Made by a program: the position numbers and the translations under genes | The notes under the pieces: model-generated | Databases searched by the model: none | What the model saw: only the letters and a program-made list of their open reading frames with translations | What the model was told of the DNA's origin: nothing | IMG/VR virus record: IMGVR_UViG_3300035703_000016 | Span: 62,001 to 126,000 of that record | Source of the DNA: a virus | Direction: 5' to 3' (one strand) | Length of the DNA: 64,000 nucleotides | Shown here: piece after piece, positions 23,675 to 34,492 of the stretch | Numbering within the stretch: position 1 is the first letter of the stretch | How the letters are laid out: each line of letters opens with the position of its first letter

Positions 23675-26600
23675 TTAGACTATTTCTTCTTTAATATTTC
23701 TTTCGTCAAGTAAACCACCCTCTTGTGATTTTCCTTCAAATAAAGAAATTTTCTTTCCTTTAAACATTTTTTCAAGACCGTCTTTATTCTGCAAATACAC
23801 TGCCATAGTACTTTCAAAACTCAATGGTCCTCCTTTATACTCTACTTTATCTTCTCCTCTTTCAATACTTGATGACATTCCTTTTTTTCCAATAGGATCT
23901 CTTCCAAATATGCTTTTATCTGTTCCTATAATTGATTTATACTTCTCAGGTCTTCCTGGCATTTTGATTGGCTCATTTGGATTAGTTTCATTATATCCAG
24001 GCGGTACGTCTAAAGCAGGTTTTCCTCCATATAATCCAGCTATCTGAGATGGTGTTCCAAATGCAGTTCCAGACTCTAAAGGATCATTTCCTTCATTCTC
24101 TATTTGATCATATCTAAATTTAGTTTTCTTATCTTCTATTATCATATCTTCTAATTCTCCAAAAGAATCTGGAGATAGATGAAATACATTCTCCCACACA
24201 TACTCTTTTGGTAATATAGAAGCTTCCATTGCTTGAGCAGCTAAGTCAATTTTTTCTTTAAACATAGCTATTCTCTCTTGATCATATATTATAGAAGGAT
24301 TTGTTAGACTAAGACTAAAATTCGCCATTCCTTCATCTGTATATCCATTTGCATATAAATGTACTAAGGCTATTTTTTTTAATTCTGATACTACTATCCT
24401 CTGTAATCTTTCAACAGTTCTGGCGAACCTGATGTCTTCCGCAGCCAATGTCGAGTTTTTGATAACTATTTCATTATCAAGTAGATAGTTATGATTTTCA
24501 TTTTTATCATGAACTTCCATATTATAAGTATCAACTTTTTCAGAAAGCCACTCAACTTTAACCACTTTGTGATTATAACATACACCTATTTGTTTTTTAA
24601 AGTCTTCTATATCTAATCCATGCTTTTGTATTTGAGATTTTATAGATTTTCTTGTATATCCAGAAATACTAAAGAATTGATCTAAATCTTTACATCCATT
24701 AGCAATTTCTACTAATCTATTTATTCTTAGATTTTTAGGTCTTCCGTGTCTAAATCCTGTATACTGGTTTAAAAATTCTGTTACTGTATATCCGCAATGT
24801 TCTATAACTTCTTTTATAATTTGAATGCTATATCCAGATATTTTTCTAAAATCAACTATATTATCTATACTACCTTTTTCTCTTTGAGCAACCTCAATTA
24901 AATACTCTATAGTCGGTCTTTCAATCCACCTTACGCTATTTTCTTTATGCAAATCCGGTCTGCCATTTGGAAATTTATTTCTATATCCATCTAATAGAGC
25001 TTCATGAGAATTTCTCTGCCTATTGCTATTTATTATTTTTTGAGACCTTTCTTCACTATATCCAGATTTTATTATAGCTACTCTTTCATCATAAGTTTTA
25101 GATAGCCATGAATTTCTGAGTATATTTTTTAATTTTGGATTTTCATCCATTTGTTTTTTTCTTATTTCAGAATATTTTTTTCTATTTTCTGGTTTTCTTT
25201 TAGTATCTTTTGATTTTTGTATAGATTCAGGACTTTTGATAGTTTGTTCCATATTATTTGAATGTAATATAACATGGTCTCTCCAAGTCATTCTTTGAAG
25301 ATTGTCTGGATTATTGTTATATCTATTAAAGTCTTTATGATGAACAATTATTAATGAATTTCTATTAAATTTTCCATCTTCTGTTATTCCATTTGATGTT
25401 ATCTTTTCATTAAAATATTCGTCCACCATTTTGTGAGTATTTTGCCAAGTTTTTGAATATGGTTGATATATTCTCTCATACGTATTTGTATTTTTTCTTC
25501 CTATCTTGACAAAATCTTTTATTATGGTCCTTAAGCTATCTCCAGGTTTTAAATCTTGAGCTTCTACTCTAGTTCCATCTTCTAATAAAAATCCATGATC
25601 TGGTGTAGTAATGACGTAAGTGTCATTATCTATATATACTTTTACTAATTGAGCATTTAATCTTGTCTTTTGAGCCGTAACAATTTTTCCAGGAACTACA
25701 CTATTAGTTTTAAAATCAAAAGAATATGTCCATAGGTTTGATTGAGGATCTTTTTCGAAAATGTCAGATATTTCTTTTATTGTTTTTGTAGTTCCATTCA
25801 ACAAAGATATTTTTGTATCTGGATGGAGACATTTGCCCGTAAGGTCTTTTTCATATCCCATAAAAGCTTTAGGTATTTTTAAAGCCGCAAATAGTTTTTC
25901 TCTAAAATAAACTACGTCTTCTATGGCATTATACTCTAATCCCTTTGCTGTATCTATTCTAGTTGATGTATCGTTTCCTCTAACAGGCACAATAAAATCT
26001 TCTAGTAAATTTTGTTGATTATATTTTAAATTATATTGTCCAGTTTGAGGATCCATAAGAGGTGTTTTTTTCATCTTATTAATCATCCTCTGTACATAAT
26101 TTTCTACTTCATTTGGAGGTATTGCTCCAACGTTTGTATAAAAAATTCTTCTTTCTGGGGCTCTAGTTATTCTATGAATCAGCATAGCATCCTCTATCAA
26201 TGTATACTGCTTAAATAGCTTTCTTGCTGGTTCTAGATATGATCTACCATAGGGCAGATAATTAACGTCTCCAATTAGCCTAAAATGCGCCATTTCATAA
26301 TTATCAAACCATACTCCAGCATCTTGATTATTATAAGCTGATGTATAACCTGAAGTAGATGATAAAGCGGCATTTGGATCAAATTTAAATCTTACTTCAT
26401 TTGGGTTATTTGGATTAAATCCCTCTTGTCTAACTATATTGTATGCTGAAAATGGTATTACGTTATATACTCCAAATTTTTCTGAAATTTCAAGTTTAAG
26501 ATAAAAATCCCCGTACTTACACATATTTCTGATCCAAGACCATAGATTAAATTCTATATTTAAAACAGAATAAAATAGATTTTCAAGAATCTTTTGAATA

Positions 26601-26968
26601 TTTTCATCAGAAGATCTAATTGTTAAAACATGACCTTGATCATTTTTAAGTGTGGCCTCATCAGCTATAATATCCAAAGCTGACGCAATAATAGCGTCAG
26701 TATCCATTGCATCGTAATCTGCGTATATCTGAACTCTTGCTGATTGATAATTTTGAGCAAGATTCAAATTAACTCCGTATGCCGTAGATGTTGTATAAAC
26801 TTTATGAAATCTATCTATTAGACTATTCGTCTGAATTACTCCATTTCTTTGAGTTCCGTCAGTGTCCATAACCGACAATATATTCCCTCCGCCATTATTT
26901 CTTATTATAACATCAGTGCTAAATAGTCTACGTAGCGTAGAAAATATATTTTGTTGTATATCTGCCAT
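23675..26968 (-). CDS. Portal protein, T4 gp20 family, interrupted by an intein
   Basis: 1097-residue precursor. The N-terminal extein (1-379) carries gp20 landmarks: ADYDAMDTDAIIASALDIIADE near residue 85, YGDFYLKLE near 152, LPYGRSYLEPARKLFKQYTLIEDAMLIHRITRAPERR from about 238, and DVVYFREKLFAALKIPKAFMGYEKDLTGK before the junction. The C-terminal extein resumes STLAAEDIRFARTVERLQRI. The spliced protein has 638 residues (T4 gp20 has 524), with extra length in the C-terminal tail. The portal is the 12-fold ring that starts head assembly and through which DNA enters and leaves. It follows the terminase gene with a 6-base gap. Confidence 0.93.
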   Translation of the reverse strand: MADIQQNIFSTLRRLFSTDVIIRNNGGGNILSVMDTDGTQRNGVIQTNSLIDRFHKVYTTSTAYGVNLNLAQNYQSARVQIYADYDAMDTDAIIASALDIIADEATLKNDQGHVLTIRSSDENIQKILENLFYSVLNIEFNLWSWIRNMCKYGDFYLKLEISEKFGVYNVIPFSAYNIVRQEGFNPNNPNEVRFKFDPNAALSSTSGYTSAYNNQDAGVWFDNYEMAHFRLIGDVNYLPYGRSYLEPARKLFKQYTLIEDAMLIHRITRAPERRIFYTNVGAIPPNEVENYVQRMINKMKKTPLMDPQTGQYNLKYNQQNLLEDFIVPVRGNDTSTRIDTAKGLEYNAIEDVVYFREKLFAALKIPKAFMGYEKDLTGKCLHPDTKISLLNGTTKTIKEISDIFEKDPQSNLWTYSFDFKTNSVVPGKIVTAQKTRLNAQLVKVYIDNDTYVITTPDHGFLLEDGTRVEAQDLKPGDSLRTIIKDFVKIGRKNTNTYERIYQPYSKTWQNTHKMVDEYFNEKITSNGITEDGKFNRNSLIIVHHKDFNRYNNNPDNLQRMTWRDHVILHSNNMEQTIKSPESIQKSKDTKRKPENRKKYSEIRKKQMDENPKLKNILRNSWLSKTYDERVAIIKSGYSEERSQKIINSNRQRNSHEALLDGYRNKFPNGRPDLHKENSVRWIERPTIEYLIEVAQREKGSIDNIVDFRKISGYSIQIIKEVIEHCGYTVTEFLNQYTGFRHGRPKNLRINRLVEIANGCKDLDQFFSISGYTRKSIKSQIQKHGLDIEDFKKQIGVCYNHKVVKVEWLSEKVDTYNMEVHDKNENHNYLLDNEIVIKNSTLAAEDIRFARTVERLQRIVVSELKKIALVHLYANGYTDEGMANFSLSLTNPSIIYDQERIAMFKEKIDLAAQAMEASILPKEYVWENVFHLSPDSFGELEDMIIEDKKTKFRYDQIENEGNDPLESGTAFGTPSQIAGLYGGKPALDVPPGYNETNPNEPIKMPGRPEKYKSIIGTDKSIFGRDPIGKKGMSSSIERGEDKVEYKGGPLSFESTMAVYLQNKDGLEKMFKGKKISLFEGKSQEGGLLDERNIKEEIV
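24455..25831 (-). other. Intein with HNH endonuclease in the portal protein
   Basis: 459 residues (380-838 of the precursor). Begins with Cys (CLHPDTKISLLNGTTKTIKE), block B has TPDH, and the end is KVDTYNMEVHD, HNYLLDN, VIKN followed by Ser as the +1 residue. The penultimate residue is Lys instead of the usual His. The insert carries an HNH nuclease motif (IVHHKDFNRYNNNPDNL then WRDHVILH) plus repeated small helical segments (ISGYSIQIIKE, ISGYTRKSIKS) that may bind DNA. Removing it joins DLTGK to STLAAEDI, which is the uninterrupted gp20 sequence pattern. Confidence 0.9.
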
Positions 26969-28634: not shown

Positions 28635-29090
28635 TTATGCTTCTTCTTGAGGAGTTTCTTCTTTTTCTGACTGTGACGGTATTTCTTCAGATCTAGATCC
28701 AGACTCTTCTTCTGGACCTTGAGATTGAGTTTTTTGTCCGTATCTCTGTAGTCTTGATATTGCCATCGTAGCCCTTTGAACTTCTCCTAAATTCATAAGA
28801 TAATATCTCTTACCCAATACAGTCGCTTCATATGCTTTTCCCATGAATGTCATGAAAAAATATTGACCATTTTTTAAAAGAATTTTGAATGTTGTTGGCT
28901 TTCCTGACATTATAAATATCCCAGAAATATACTCTTTAAAAGTATTTCCCATTATTATACTCAGATTATTATGAAGTCTTTTGTACTTCTTTAATATATA
29001 TTTCATAGGATCAGCTTCAAATTCTGGATTTGATGGAGCTTCATTTATTTCTCTTAATAAATTTTTTAGTATGTCTGTTAGCTTTATCAT
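28635..29090 (-). CDS. Leader-bearing small protein, probably packaged
   Basis: 151 residues. Starts MIKLTDILKNLLREINEA, the shared leader with possible cleavage after LLRE or INE. The middle contains aromatic-rich strands (GKPTTFKILLKNGQYFFMTF, then GKRYYLMNLGEVQRA), and the C-terminal 35 residues are acidic and low-complexity. No named family. It is immediately downstream of another leader-bearing gene (one shared base) and upstream of terminase. Confidence 0.5.
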   Translation of the reverse strand: MIKLTDILKNLLREINEAPSNPEFEADPMKYILKKYKRLHNNLSIIMGNTFKEYISGIFIMSGKPTTFKILLKNGQYFFMTFMGKAYEATVLGKRYYLMNLGEVQRATMAISRLQRYGQKTQSQGPEEESGSRSEEIPSQSEKEETPQEEA

Positions 29091-29446
29091 TAGCTCATCA
29101 TTTGATTGAAAGTCTTAAAATTGAATTTAGAGTGCATCATCAAATTGTCATTATCTTTGAATTGATATAAATTTGCTCCATCTTTAGTAAATTCAATTTC
29201 TATTTTTGTTCTATTTTTAGGATAATAAACCATTCCGCCAGTTGTTATTTTAGTTGGATATAGATTATAGTTGACTTTTGCATATTTCCAAATATCGTTA
29301 ATTATCTTAGGAAGTCCTTGATATTCAACAAATTGAGCTATTACTGAACCATCCATTAATTGATCTTTATCGACTATGTATGATTCTTGATACTCTGTAT
29401 TAGGCTTCCAACCAATCTCTTTTAATATGTCTGCTAATTTTATCAT
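29090..29446 (-). CDS. Leader-bearing small protein, probably packaged
   Basis: 118 residues. Starts MIKLADILKEIGWKPN, close to the neighbouring gene's MIKLTDILKN. The body is a small alpha/beta protein (QFVEYQGLPKIINDIWKYAK, TKIEIEFTKDGANLYQF). No homologue recognised. The leader ends at LKE, a fit to the gp21 cleavage pattern, so the mature part would begin at residue 11. Confidence 0.5.
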   Translation of the reverse strand: MIKLADILKEIGWKPNTEYQESYIVDKDQLMDGSVIAQFVEYQGLPKIINDIWKYAKVNYNLYPTKITTGGMVYYPKNRTKIEIEFTKDGANLYQFKDNDNLMMHSKFNFKTFNQMMS

Positions 29447-29462
29447 TACTTTTTTATAATTA

Positions 29463-32102
29463 TTATCTTATTAGAGTTACGTCTCCTTTTTCTATGTGTT
29501 GTTCTCCTTCGCATTCATATATTATTACCCAATAATATACTCCAACTTCTTGAATGATTCCTTTATAAGTTCCATCCCATCCTTTTGAAGCTAGTAATTT
29601 AGATGTGTAAACTTCTTGACCCCAACGATTAAATATACTAAATTGATGAATTTTAAATCTATCTCCAATTGGTCTGAACAAATCATTTAATCCGTCACCA
29701 TTAGGAGTAAAAGCAAGAGGTACATTAAATTTACAACACGATTTTGGGTCTATTTTAACTGAGTCCATACTAACGCATCCATGAGAAGACATAGCGTATA
29801 AAATTGCAGTTCTACTAGCGTCTATATATCCTTGAATATATGTCTGACTTGTTAAATCCTGATTATAAAAATAGTATATAGGTAACCATCTATAAACAAT
29901 ATTCTGTTTTGGATTTAGAGGAGAAAAGTTAATTTTATCTCCTATACACACTTCTTCATTAAATTCTGATATTCTAGCATCTGGATAATCTTGTACTTCA
30001 ATTAATTTAGAAAAAGTATCAGAATAGCAATACGTGTTTTTTACAACTAATTTAATATTATATTTTCCTGTATCTGGGTAGTGAAATGTATAAATGCCTT
30101 GAGCATATTCTGGAATATCTGCTAATAATGTGCTATCAAAATTCCAATAATACTCGATAACATTATTTTTTTGATTAGTCGCTAAAATACTAACAGTGTC
30201 TCCTTTACATATCTTACTTTTAGGATACTCGTCTATTTGCACTTCTGGTATTTTAATTACTTTTAAATTTAATGTAGATACTGAATCACATCCGTATTGA
30301 TTTATAAATTTTCTAGAGTAAACTCCTTCTTTATTATAGGAAATTCCTGCAAAATGAATAGTATCTCCAGAACATATAGAGTCATTTATAGTAGTTGACT
30401 GAGTTGGCAATATGGTGACTATTATTCTTATTGTAGAATCGCATCCATTAGTTGTATAAAATTTTACAGGATATATGCCCTCCGTATTATAAGCTATTCC
30501 ATCAAAAATATACTCCTCTCCTGGACATATCGATATTGGTTTGTTTATTGTATAAGTGGGGTTTACTATAACATTTATAGGAAGTCTAAATGATTCGCAT
30601 CCTGCAATAGTTTGAGTTACCCACCAAGTATATAACCCAGGAGTAGTCGTATTTGGAATAGGGGAGATTGTTGAGCCCACGCCTCCAGTTAAGCTAGTAT
30701 ACCACTTTAAAATGCCAATTCCTGCTACTCCAGAGCTCAATGGGGCAGCTATTTCATTTTGGCAATACATTGTATCGCTAACTACTGGATTTGCTGCTAA
30801 AATGGGAATTACAGTTAAAAGAAATTTTTTATTTAGTTTTCTACATCTTGTAGTATCTACTCCTGTAATTGTATAAGTTGTAATTGCTGAAATAGAAGAT
30901 AGTGTCAAAATAGTGCTCACTCCAGTAGTAGAAGAGAGACCTATACCAGGAGACCATGTCCATTTGCTCCAACTCCAATTTTTATCTGACGCGTTTTTAA
31001 TTTCTAAATTTACTAATCCTGATGATGATATGCATGTTGTTATCGTATCTACTGAATCAACTTCACTTCCATTTACTATCATTGTAGGTTCTGGAAATGC
31101 TGTATCTAAGGCGCCTTGCATAGAAGTAGATCCATTATAGATATATGCATAAGAAAATGTTGTACTATCTCCAGGAAGAATATTACATAGATTATATACA
31201 AGTCCTATTGCTATATCCGACGTTGCTCCAGTATTTACTCCATAATAAGATGTTCCTATTCCTGTTGCTGTTCCAGACCACATTGACACATATGTTACAG
31301 TCGTCGCTAATGGCCATGAATTGTAAACCATACATTTTGCTCTGTCATCTTTTGTCCCAAGTGATATTGAAGCAGCAGGAGATCCAGTAGAAGACGTTCC
31401 TCCAGTAGCTGTTGAAGACACCATTACTCTATGATAAAAATCATTTTGAAATCTTACTGTATTAATTGTAGAAAAAGATCCTCCCCAAGGTACGCTTTGA
31501 TCAGGATCGCATGATCTCATATAATATACATTATTCAACGTAGTAGTGCCAGTATTATATAATCTAACACTAATTACTAAAGCAGACGAAAGCGTGTCTA
31601 CTCTATACTCTTTTCTTATTTGTAACTGCCCTCCTAAAAAAGATCCAGACCAATCTCCTGTTATTTTTCCACTAGAATTTAAATAAGAAATCCAATTACC
31701 TGTAGCTGGAACTAATCCTCCTGATAAATTACAATTTGAAGAATACGCCCATTCTCTAATTCCACTAATTTCTATTCCCCATCCTTCCCAAGGAGATCCT
31801 GGAAGAGTATAGTCTCCCATATAATTAGGAGTACCTATAGTCCATCCATCTAATCCAAAATCATATACAGATGCTAATAGACTAGAAGATGAACCTCCAC
31901 ATAAAAAAACTGGACCACCGGTTCTCGGATGATATCCAGCCGGAGCAGCTACTCCTGATCCTAAAGACGCATTTGCTTGTGCTCCGATTTCTAAATATTT
32001 TCCTTGAAGAAATAGATTACCAGACACGATCTGTGAATTTGATTTTAAAACGCTAAATATAAGCGTTAGCACTACTAGAATTGCAAATTTTAAATTTTTC
32101 AT
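29463..32102 (-). CDS. Secreted, type IX-sorted surface protein (T9SS type-B sorting domain)
   Basis: 879 residues from the ATG at 32102 (a TTG two codons upstream is less likely). Residues 1-24 are a signal peptide (MKNLKFAILVVLTLIFSVLK then SNSQ). A large beta-rich region follows, then two tandem repeats of about 48 residues, each with CxGxxxxFxGxxYxxxGxY and GCDS (about 520-615), then a PKD-like domain (YYWNFDSTL, HYPDTGKYNIKLVVKN). The C-terminal 90 residues (FTPNGDGLNDLFRPIG, FSIFNRWGQEVY, GWDGTYKG, GVYYWVI, KGDVTLIR) are the gliding-motility-associated / type IX secretion type-B sorting domain (CHU_C). Such proteins are exported by Bacteroidota and fixed to the cell surface. It is most likely acquired from a host and acts on the infected cell's surface; the exact role is unknown. 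Confidence 0.88.
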   Translation of the reverse strand: MKNLKFAILVVLTLIFSVLKSNSQIVSGNLFLQGKYLEIGAQANASLGSGVAAPAGYHPRTGGPVFLCGGSSSSLLASVYDFGLDGWTIGTPNYMGDYTLPGSPWEGWGIEISGIREWAYSSNCNLSGGLVPATGNWISYLNSSGKITGDWSGSFLGGQLQIRKEYRVDTLSSALVISVRLYNTGTTTLNNVYYMRSCDPDQSVPWGGSFSTINTVRFQNDFYHRVMVSSTATGGTSSTGSPAASISLGTKDDRAKCMVYNSWPLATTVTYVSMWSGTATGIGTSYYGVNTGATSDIAIGLVYNLCNILPGDSTTFSYAYIYNGSTSMQGALDTAFPEPTMIVNGSEVDSVDTITTCISSSGLVNLEIKNASDKNWSWSKWTWSPGIGLSSTTGVSTILTLSSISAITTYTITGVDTTRCRKLNKKFLLTVIPILAANPVVSDTMYCQNEIAAPLSSGVAGIGILKWYTSLTGGVGSTISPIPNTTTPGLYTWWVTQTIAGCESFRLPINVIVNPTYTINKPISICPGEEYIFDGIAYNTEGIYPVKFYTTNGCDSTIRIIVTILPTQSTTINDSICSGDTIHFAGISYNKEGVYSRKFINQYGCDSVSTLNLKVIKIPEVQIDEYPKSKICKGDTVSILATNQKNNVIEYYWNFDSTLLADIPEYAQGIYTFHYPDTGKYNIKLVVKNTYCYSDTFSKLIEVQDYPDARISEFNEEVCIGDKINFSPLNPKQNIVYRWLPIYYFYNQDLTSQTYIQGYIDASRTAILYAMSSHGCVSMDSVKIDPKSCCKFNVPLAFTPNGDGLNDLFRPIGDRFKIHQFSIFNRWGQEVYTSKLLASKGWDGTYKGIIQEVGVYYWVIIYECEGEQHIEKGDVTLIR

Positions 32103-32113
32103 AATCAATTATT

Positions 32114-32446
32114 TTAATTAGATGATACTTCACTTACATACTGAGCGACACTGTTCATATAATCACTAGCTAATGTGATATAAGCAGATACCCATCCAGG
32201 TAACTCAGTTCCTTCTTCTATAATATTATAAATTTTTGAAGAATTAGATATTAAACTTTTGAGTTCTCCTTTTGCCATAGTGGCTTCATGATCTTGAGAA
32301 GGTTGTCCAAATACTTCTTCTGACACGTCCTGCATTTGTAAAGAAGGCAACATTGAAGTTATTCTTTTTTCATTTCCATAAGATATTTCTGGAGTTTCAT
32401 TTGAATTTGGAGTAAATTGCTCAACTAGAGACAGTAATTTTATCAT
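32114..32446 (-). CDS. Small conserved-type virion protein with packaged-protein leader
   Basis: 110 residues. Starts MIKLLSLVEQFTPN (shared leader). The second half reads DHEATMAKGELKSLISNSSK then ELPGWVSAYITLASDYMNSV, a pattern I associate with a widespread uncharacterised protein of T4-like phages in which helix-WVxAxIT-xAxDYM is conserved. Function unknown. It sits directly upstream of the type IX-sorted protein and 1 base after the next leader-bearing gene. Confidence 0.55.
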   Translation of the reverse strand: MIKLLSLVEQFTPNSNETPEISYGNEKRITSMLPSLQMQDVSEEVFGQPSQDHEATMAKGELKSLISNSSKIYNIIEEGTELPGWVSAYITLASDYMNSVAQYVSEVSSN

Positions 32447-32447
32447 T

Positions 32448-33407
32448 TTAGATCATTTTTGCATAATTAAATAACTGTGTAGGATAAATTCCAAATCTTG
32501 CATCTTTTACTCCTTGTTGATTTACAGATTTCCTATATGATACTCCTAAAATTGGTTTGTATTTATCTGGAGGAACTTCTGGATATGTCCAAACTATTTG
32601 CTTATTTGATTGAGCTTTTATCTCATATAAAGTATTGCTTACTTTTACAAGAGTCATTGCTCCAACCACAACTAATTGAACTTTATTTAATCCAAAATTC
32701 TCATCTTTACCGTAAACAGCTTTTACCATTAATTCTTCATCAGATATTTCAGATTTATAAGCAGTCTTTGGTTGCATTTGTCCTTGAGTAAGTTTATTTA
32801 CTTTTTTTATAAATTTACTTACATCCGCATAATCCAATAAAGATGCAACTCCACTATATTGCTGATACTTATCATAATCTTTGTGAGATATAAAAATTAC
32901 GTCTTCTCCTTTATCATTTTTAAGAATAAAGTCAGCCTTTGGATTAGCTGTTGGTTTCCCTCCAGAAACTATGTTTTTATAAATTTTTCCAGCTATTCTA
33001 ATATTTACACTTCCTCCAGCTTCTTTGATTTGATTTAAAAATTCTGATAATGTTCTATCTTCTATCCCCATCCCCCTAGCAATCTCTTGACCGCCAAAAT
33101 CAGAAGTTTTCTCTAATTTTCCAAGTAAATAAGATTCTCCATTTTTATCAAAAAACGGAATTTTTAATAAACTTTTATAGTCTTTATCCGTTAATTTTTG
33201 AATAAAATCTTTACTTTTTATTTTATCGACTACTATGTCATCTCCGCTAGTCAGTCTTAATGACTTATTTGAATTTATTAAACTTAGTAGAACTTCTCCT
33301 CTATCAGATAAATTTTTTACTTTTGTATCTTTTGCTAATGTCCTTGGAGTTAAATTTCCCTTTTCATTAAGCTGAATACTATTATATATTTCAATTAGCT
33401 TTATCAT
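32448..33407 (-). CDS. Leader-bearing protein with PD-(D/E)XK-like core
   Basis: 319 residues. Starts MIKLIEIYNSIQLNEKGN (leader with L-N-E). The centre has GGKPTANPKADFILKNDKGE followed by VIFISHKDYDKYQQYSGV (about residues 150-190). Asp in a strand, then a second strand ending in S-H-K, then a Gln-rich helix resembles the PD-(D/E)XK nuclease arrangement; the usual E/D of the ExK is replaced by Ser. Related proteins with SHK-type cores exist in T4-like phages of marine bacteria as far as I recall, without known function. An ATATTTAT motif lies just upstream. Confidence 0.5.
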   Translation of the reverse strand: MIKLIEIYNSIQLNEKGNLTPRTLAKDTKVKNLSDRGEVLLSLINSNKSLRLTSGDDIVVDKIKSKDFIQKLTDKDYKSLLKIPFFDKNGESYLLGKLEKTSDFGGQEIARGMGIEDRTLSEFLNQIKEAGGSVNIRIAGKIYKNIVSGGKPTANPKADFILKNDKGEDVIFISHKDYDKYQQYSGVASLLDYADVSKFIKKVNKLTQGQMQPKTAYKSEISDEELMVKAVYGKDENFGLNKVQLVVVGAMTLVKVSNTLYEIKAQSNKQIVWTYPEVPPDKYKPILGVSYRKSVNQQGVKDARFGIYPTQLFNYAKMI

Positions 33408-33428: not shown

Positions 33429-34028
33429 TTATTTTAAAATAGAGTAATACTGATTAAAATGTTTTATTCTATCATTAATTCCAATTATTCCACCATTAAC
33501 TCTTTTAGTAATTTTTGTTATAGTATCTGTAGTAGATCCTTCATCAGCAATCTTATGAAGTCCATTTATTGTAAAAAACCACGCAGCGGATGCAAGAGGG
33601 TACTTAGTAGAAACCAGATCTGGATTGGACACACAGTCTTCATTGATGGATTCAGAAAATGCTCTATAATTGTTTTTACCTGTTAATTGGATAAAGCCCC
33701 TTCCTCTATATTTATATCCGTCTCCAGAATTTTCAGGACCATTTCCCATTCTACCTCCATAAACCAAATTTGCTATTTTTTCTGGTTTTCTTTCATACTG
33801 AATTGCCTTTTCTACTGTAGGAAAATATTTTTTAAAAGTCGTAAGTAGTCCTTTTGTATTATAGTTCAGATTTTCATTTAAAGATTTAAATCCTCCAGAT
33901 TCATGACCAGCTTGGGCTAAAAAATGAGAGAGTCTTAAAGGAGTATTTATCTCGAATTTTTCAATCACGTTTGGAAGCATTTTAATTACAGAGTCTGGAA
34001 TATGACCTTTTAATTTCTCTAAGTTCAT
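33429..34028 (-). CDS. Endolysin, glycoside hydrolase family 19
   Basis: 199 residues. The catalytic region AQAGHESGGFKSLNENLNYN gives E43 as the general acid and E52 as the second acid. YRGRGFIQLTGKNNY and the late SAAWFFTINGLHKIAD are also standard for GH19 chitinase-like lysozymes of phages, which cut peptidoglycan glycan strands. No signal peptide or anchor is present, so release would need a holin; none is clearly identified next to it. The start overlaps the upstream gene by 4 bases. Confidence 0.92.
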   Translation of the reverse strand: MNLEKLKGHIPDSVIKMLPNVIEKFEINTPLRLSHFLAQAGHESGGFKSLNENLNYNTKGLLTTFKKYFPTVEKAIQYERKPEKIANLVYGGRMGNGPENSGDGYKYRGRGFIQLTGKNNYRAFSESINEDCVSNPDLVSTKYPLASAAWFFTINGLHKIADEGSTTDTITKITKRVNGGIIGINDRIKHFNQYYSILK

Positions 34029-34492
34029 GATTTTACTAATTTTGTTTTATCAGAAAAAATAACTTTTCTTACAGCAGTTACTTTCTTAACTTTTTCTTTT
34101 ATAGATTGAATAACACCATCGTTAAAAGTTTCAAATGGAGCTGGATCTATTTTTATACTAATGTCAACAACATACTTTTTTAATTTTTCAGCAGAAGGTT
34201 GTCTATTGTTTGTTACTCTAACTACAGTAATTCCAGCTATTGCTCTAATATCAGAAAGAATATCAGCTAAAGATCTCCTTGTAGTATCTGCTATAAGTTG
34301 CCCTTCAATTTGATATATTTTTGGATTGTTAGTCTCTTTTATTGAATTTATTTCTTTAGCAGATTTTACAGCTTTTTTATAGGCATCACTTCCTTTTCTT
34401 GCAGGTTTTTCTCCTCTTTCTCTTTTAGCTTGGATATTTGCCCAAAGACCTTTTCTTTTTATTTCTTGAAGTATGCTAATTAGCGATATCAT
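34025..34492 (-). CDS. Leader-bearing basic protein
   Basis: 155 residues. Starts MISLISILQEIKRKGLW (shared leader, cleavage fit after LQE). The following segment KRKGLWANIQAKRERGEKPARKGSDAYKKA is strongly basic and the C-terminal 80 residues are alpha/beta (RVTNNRQPSAEKLKKYVVDI, VRKVIFSDK). No named family. High charge would suit a DNA-associated internal head protein. Confidence 0.5.
   Translation of the reverse strand: MISLISILQEIKRKGLWANIQAKRERGEKPARKGSDAYKKAVKSAKEINSIKETNNPKIYQIEGQLIADTTRRSLADILSDIRAIAGITVVRVTNNRQPSAEKLKKYVVDISIKIDPAPFETFNDGVIQSIKEKVKKVTAVRKVIFSDKTKLVKS

Follow-up and report, generated by a model that had tools for sequence, protein, structure and literature searches.

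A phage accessory gene for a predicted type-B substrate of the host type IX secretion system

Among the packaging and lysis genes of what is, judged by its sequence, a large contractile-tailed, immuto-like (Flavobacterium-phage-like) myovirus of Bacteroidota lies a gene for an 879-residue protein with the architecture of a secreted type-B substrate of the type IX secretion system (T9SS). The gene was found in the window, meaning the whole 64-kb stretch of DNA analysed here, which is part of a 158-kb IMG/VR record. Secretion of the predicted protein is well supported by its domain layout, and comparison with relatives identifies the gene as an old, functional, accessory phage gene. Our preferred reading, to which we assign a probability of roughly 0.6, is that the protein would be exported late in infection through host Sec, the host T9SS and a host PorP/SprF shuttle, that its N-terminal domain (N-domain) would bind a surface target, and that the benefit to the phage would lie in masking or modifying surfaces.

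Genomic setting and protein architecture

The gene belongs to a tightly packed run on one strand:

23675-26968, minus strand: T4-like portal with an intein (about residues 380-838, HNH); PF07230, PF14890, PF13392
26975-28579, minus strand: terminase large subunit, 55% identity to its counterpart in Flavobacterium phage immuto; profile and sequence match
28635-29090, minus strand: 151-aa gene with a MIKLTDIL leader, conserved and bordering the insertion site on its right; comparison of relatives
29090-29446, minus strand: 118-aa gene with a MIKLADILKE leader, downstream neighbour; ORF call and leader survey
29463-32102, minus strand: T9SS type-B substrate, 879 aa; ORF, PF13585/TIGR04131; L165, L008, L167 and L168 have full-length orthologs at this site
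32114-32446, minus strand: 110-aa gene with a MIKLLSL leader, conserved and bordering the insertion site on its left; comparison of relatives
33429-34028, minus strand: GH19-type endolysin; PF00182 33 bits, phrog_181 E 8e-70

The flanking genes stand 11 and 16 bp away from the T9SS cargo gene, and these short gaps, together with the strand shared with endolysin, terminase and portal, indicate that it is probably transcribed within a late operon. The same neighbours bear out a preliminary description in which the gene was placed among virion and lysis genes and outside any fibre block. Flavobacterium phage immuto has, according to its database record, a 160-kb genome and is named there as a myovirus. 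A second relative by sequence is the Microcystis phage Mel-JY01 (L005, PP395634.1), whose terminase and portal are 50% and 51% identical to those of the window phage; in view of this likeness to a phage of the Bacteroidota type, the host recorded for it may merit checking. The HNH-bearing intein inside the portal gene spans window positions 24455-25831. The portals of L008 and L168 have no such insert, and in L167 it is the terminase, not the portal, that is interrupted by an apparently intein-like insert (L167:11650-12800).

A further feature of this region is a leader, MI[KS]LxxILxE, common to small late proteins that are otherwise unrelated (60 ORFs, about 22 body families). Its bearers in the window are the ORFs at 28635-29090, 29090-29446, 32114-32446, 32448-33407 and 34025-34492, and others occur in L007-L086, L165, L167 and L168. 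Under a looser MI[KS]L rule, [IL]xE follows at residues 5-14 in 64 of 69 ORFs, as against 201 of 739 other ORFs. By analogy the leader may correspond to the capsid-targeting sequence of T4 internal proteins, which it resembles, and the genes may represent a bank of injected head proteins. Two uncultured phages of 642 kb (L003) and 635 kb (L004) have a similar but different leader (MKHLKKFNES / MKYLKKYKLFES, on 9/33 and 5/33 ORFs).

The cargo ORF starts with an ATG at 32102 and its stop ends at 29463, with zero internal stops; a TTG lies two codons upstream of the ATG. In a full-length structure model (pLDDT 70) the product is a string of beta domains, and its parts are as follows:

32034-32102, minus strand: Sec-type signal peptide, residues 1-23; sequence, full-length model (helix at residues 2-17), same layout in every ortholog despite divergence
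31053-32033, minus strand: N-domain, an unnamed beta-supersandwich, residues 24-350, the most conserved part; alignment, AlphaFold, Foldseek
30798-31052, minus strand: Ig-like bead, residues 351-435; all-beta in the full-length model, without a Pfam match
30558-30791, minus strand: Ig_7 (CHU_C-associated Ig), residues 438-515; PF19081 37.4 bits, cut-off 27.3
30249-30542, minus strand: two 'NGCDS/YGCDS' repeat modules, residues 521-618; read from the sequence, beta in the model
30030-30230, minus strand: PKD-like bead, residues 625-691; PKD_4 (PF18911) 20 bits, under the cut-off of 27, and 29 bits in the L165 ortholog
29727-29987, minus strand: linker bead, residues 706-792; sequence, beta in the model
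29466-29726, minus strand: type-B T9SS sorting domain, residues 793-879 (AFTPNGDGLND...NRWG...GWDGTYKG...GDVTLIR); PF13585, TIGR04131, sorting-domain alignment

The preliminary description had read the C-terminus as a T9SS type-B domain and named TIGR04131 and PF13585 as the profiles against which to check it. Both match above their curated cut-offs, CHU_C (PF13585) over residues 793-874 with 55.4 bits (E 7e-15, cut-off 27) and TIGR04131 over residues 793-879 with 45.2 bits (E 8e-12, cut-off 35), and the domain ends at the extreme C-terminus, on the last of the 879 residues. The C-terminal domain is of type B, and the type-A sorting domain PF18962 is absent from the whole phage record. The signal peptide proposed earlier is likewise upheld: the first residues read MKNLKFAILVVLTLIFSVLKSNSQ, followed by IVSG, with K-K, a long hydrophobic core and SNSQ, a layout of the Bacteroidota Sec type. 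Although only 32-37% of residues in this region are common to the window protein and its orthologs, the succession of charge, hydrophobic core and N-[SA]-Q is kept in all of them, which is the pattern expected from selection on a signal peptide. As for the repeat modules described earlier, the GCDS copies (about residues 521-618) are visible by eye and matched no Pfam model, and the PKD assignment falls short in the window protein and holds in L165.

The largest and most conserved part of the protein, the N-domain, was overlooked in the preliminary description and is the likeliest functional part. It has no sequence match in Pfam or PDB. Aligned in 78 rows and modelled with AlphaFold, it gave a pLDDT of 85.7 and a pTM of 0.88; one row from the phages collection was left out of the structure-prediction input. 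Foldseek paired this model with the beta-supersandwich domains found in GH116, GH94 and related enzymes and in aldose-1-epimerases, and with the periplasmic domain of YidC. The predicted fold is a carbohydrate-type beta-supersandwich, an assignment of fold only; because the matches are at fold level (TM about 0.5 with large enzymes, about 12% identity), carbohydrate binding is a guess, and for a glycoside hydrolase or mutarotase there is fold similarity and no Pfam enzyme match. A BFVD phage protein has the same fold at 24% identity, and a remote full-length relative (about 27% identity) is encoded by the 642-kb phage L003. Relatives in viral contigs were found by alignment queries, a single-sequence scan with exact peptide patterns having returned none.

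A scan of GTDB genomes found 78 N-domain loci, mostly in Bacteroidota, with a few in Myxococcota, Campylobacterota, Nitrospinota, Planctomycetota and Thiothrix. These homologs stand behind signal peptides and end in type-B tails, type-A tails or, outside Bacteroidota, hydrophobic or Arg-rich tails, an arrangement which indicates that the domain works outside the cell. Among the non-Bacteroidota examples L110, L111, L119, L121, L138 and L095 (Thiothrix, Campylobacteraceae, Myxococcota, Nitrospinota), the complete proteins often have such hydrophobic or Arg-rich C-terminal tails. The N-domain represents a conserved, unnamed extracellular domain family for which a structure would be worthwhile.

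Distribution, selection and origin

Full-length orthologs with 60-69% identity lie between the same two flanking genes in the four viral contigs L165, L008, L167 and L168. Including the window, five phages carry the cargo gene at this site, and probably seven if L173 and L174 are counted, where C-terminal parts only are present (76% identity in the sorting domain). The gene is missing from 26 relatives that cover the site, and in L009, whose terminase is 86% identical, the site is empty, a gap of 63 bp separating the end of the left-flank gene (8336) from the start of the right-flank gene (8400). Such presence and absence at one site amid otherwise collinear genes is the pattern of a moron-like gene. 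PF13585 proteins were absent throughout the records of 13 relatives, which include four of 160-190 kb. The earlier proposals that the gene is the phage's own and that the host belongs to the Bacteroidota are supported.

Codon use in the cargo gene resembles that of the phage, its GC3 (0.168) falling inside the range of neighbouring genes (0.10-0.24). Estimates of dN/dS, which are rough because synonymous sites are near saturation, are 0.07-0.18 for the N-domain, 0.12-0.24 for the sorting domain where calculable, and up to 0.83 for the PKD region in some pairs; by this measure the N-domain and sorting domain are clearly under purifying selection and the PKD region is freer. Phylogenetic analysis groups the five phage copies in a single clade (100/100), which is nested with proteins of Flavipsychrobacter, Chitinophagaceae and Chitinophagia. 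The closest relatives outside phages are cellular Chitinophagales surface proteins with type-B tails, some of them in chromosomal tandem arrays, as in L089 with its three N-domain proteins. Those of L087, L088 and L089 have the same N-domain (52-61% identity), Ig beads and a type-B tail, and differ from the phage protein in being chromosomal and, where complete, 1,030-1,188 aa long. The gene would have been acquired long ago from a Chitinophagales-type host.

Type-B proteins extend well beyond this clade. An IMG/VR scan with the sorting-domain alignment confirmed at least 262 places in viral contigs, a lower bound that derives from two peptide patterns only, and 80 loci were kept for a closer look; among these, a simple hydropathy rule assigns an N-terminal signal peptide to nearly all complete ORFs. 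Each of the 48 records longer than 20 kb has one or two PF13585 proteins, and a terminase over cut-off or a tail sheath was found in at least 26 of them, including all 17 of at least 100 kb. Three of 50,697 records in an annotated phage collection match. By these sequence matches, type-B genes appear common in uncultivated phages.

The proteins themselves are diverse. A BLAST clustering of their cargo merged nearly all of them, probably through common Ig/PKD beads, and was set aside. A length of about 187 aa with one Ig-like bead is frequent, and in the 107-aa product of L177:4932-5252 a signal peptide is joined straight to the type-B sorting domain, free of cargo. L236:2826-5270 encodes a protein of about 816 aa that contains SprB repeats (PF13573), the repeat type of the gliding adhesin SprB; the repeats were examined in L236 only, and proteins of similar length occur among L196-L251. 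L212:3730-5258 and L223:3523-5258 each comprise three genes for secreted proteins, the third being the type-B protein, and the L212 cassette lies between structural genes, adjoining the head-tail adaptor and the tail sheath.

Predicted export and competing explanations

The architecture, site, family and selection described above, and the absence of a phage shuttle, are read from the sequence, and from them we infer the timing, secretion, ligand and benefit proposed here. Late in infection, as the position of the gene suggests, the precursor would be exported by host Sec; the host T9SS would recognise its type-B C-terminal domain and pass it to a PorP/SprF-like shuttle of the host, after which the infected cell would carry the protein on its outer surface or shed it. 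The Ig/PKD beads would serve as a stalk and the N-domain as a binding head for a glycan or protein on the surface. The phage would most likely gain from having the surfaces of the dying cell, of its debris and of neighbouring cells masked or modified, so that progeny virions would not be lost to them and other phages would adsorb less. The packing of the gene among late packaging and lysis genes speaks against superinfection exclusion of the classical early kind and favours an effect as infection ends, a timing that masking would fit better. Exclusion, masking and altered biofilm or gliding had all been put forward in the preliminary description and stand as proposals, the same idea having been raised before for type-A cargo in Cryophage (PMC7468147).

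Export by the host's T9SS, also proposed there, agrees with the architecture and calls for one amendment. Type-B export depends on a cognate PorP/SprF shuttle, with specific pairing (PMC12618676), and a profile search found no PorP/SprF encoded in the 158-kb phage record, so that a host shuttle would have to be borrowed. The same search found 2-7 per genome in four cellular genomes carrying relatives, a positive control run on cellular genomes because PF11751 gave no match in control genomes. The linked porP/sprF gene that usually accompanies a type-B substrate is lacking in the phage; linkage is usual, not obligatory, and 3 of 12 F. johnsoniae type-B substrates are orphans. Shuttles are in short supply, with some orphan substrates relying on a common one (PMC12618676); PorP-like proteins are bound by type-B proteins at the surface (PMC9143113). 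The specificity of shuttle pairing (PMC12618676) counts against the borrowing model.

An alternative of some substance, if an unlikely one, is that the displayed protein would stick infected cells together, or to surfaces or polysaccharide, with effects on biofilm, aggregation or substrate capture, in the manner of its homologs in hosts. Known or predicted type-B substrates are adhesins (PMC12618676), the nearest homologs of the window protein are host surface proteins, its N-domain has a supersandwich fold, and SprB-repeat type-B proteins occur in other phages; the gain for a lytic phage late in infection is unclear, however, and the protein has no catalytic partner domain.

It is also conceivable that the sorting domain is itself the active part, an abundant substrate without a shuttle of its own saturating the scarce host PorP/SprF or the translocon and blocking the display of gliding adhesins or receptors. 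Phage type-B cargo ranges from none (L177, 107 aa) through one Ig bead to 1,732 aa, and this variety, with its cargo-free extreme, makes such competition a real alternative, albeit a rather improbable one. Like the window's record, all 48 records above 20 kb with type-B proteins lack PorP/SprF, as against the 2-7 of cellular genomes. Shuttles are apparently not recycled, and overproduced type-B fusions remain unsecreted without an extra shuttle (PMC12618676); phages of F. columnare likely use components of the gliding machinery as receptors, and colonies that are resistant no longer glide (PMC7345892). Against this, conservation of the N-domain between the window protein and its phage orthologs equals or exceeds that of the sorting domain (73-77% versus 66-77% identity), so the cargo matters and is too conserved for a mere passenger in this clade, the late gene position is odd for exclusion, and the L177 record has no terminase or sheath match. 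The broader proposal of a widespread phage strategy, in which type-B substrates without shuttles would occupy host shuttles and replace gliding adhesins or receptors with phage cargo or none, is speculative and, in our estimate, unlikely.

Far less probable is a capsid or tail decoration with Ig/PKD beads. The gene does lie among packaging genes, and the similar type-B gene of L212 between head-tail adaptor and tail sheath, but every phage copy retains both the signal peptide and the sorting domain at the C-terminus, 26 relatives do without the gene, and it has no PHROG match; the marks of a virion structural protein (conservation in relatives, no export signals, a structural family match) are lacking, and a tail-fibre or virion protein is judged unlikely. 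A recently captured, functionless host gene or an assembly chimera, which cellular nearest relatives might suggest, is rejected as barely credible, given the same site in at least five independent contigs, purifying selection and a GC3 like that of the neighbours.

Relation to known systems and significance

Phage T5 and its like make Llp-type outer-surface receptor blockers, which block receptors and spare progeny from debris; the likeness to the masking proposed here is by analogy only, Llp being a small lipoprotein with a different export route. Phage-borne T9SS cargo is already known in its type-A form. Cryophage, a Bacteroidetes phage of cryoconite, encodes T9SS sorting-domain proteins that vary between phage variants and for which superinfection exclusion or competition was suggested (PMC7468147); these have type-A domains and endoglucanase, GH39 or PA14 cargo, whereas the window protein is of type B, needs a specific PorP/SprF shuttle and has cargo of another family. 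In crAss-like/BACON lineages, too, T9SS sorting-domain genes lie beside head genes of Bacteroidetes phages, but these are gut phages with BACON repeat cargo, and the report drew no functional conclusion (PMC6949934). The cellular substrates SprB, Fjoh_3952 and PG1035 share the signal peptide, TIGR04131 tail and surface location, and are mostly adhesins (PMC12618676, PMC9143113); cellular type-B substrates are usually encoded beside a porP/sprF gene, and the window's in a phage without a shuttle. A literature search, with subscription journals mostly outside its scope, returned no earlier account of phage type-B cargo without a shuttle or of a phage SprB.

Such genes appear far commoner in uncultivated phages, where at least 262 places were found, than among the deposited phage records searched (3/50,697). 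If the preferred reading of late export and surface masking is true, phages of Bacteroidota would remodel the host surface through a secretion system that is essentially confined to Bacteroidota. Whether phage T9SS cargo causes superinfection exclusion or receptor masking, and whether the supply of shuttles limits surface display in Bacteroidota, are questions that this gene and its relatives would open to test.
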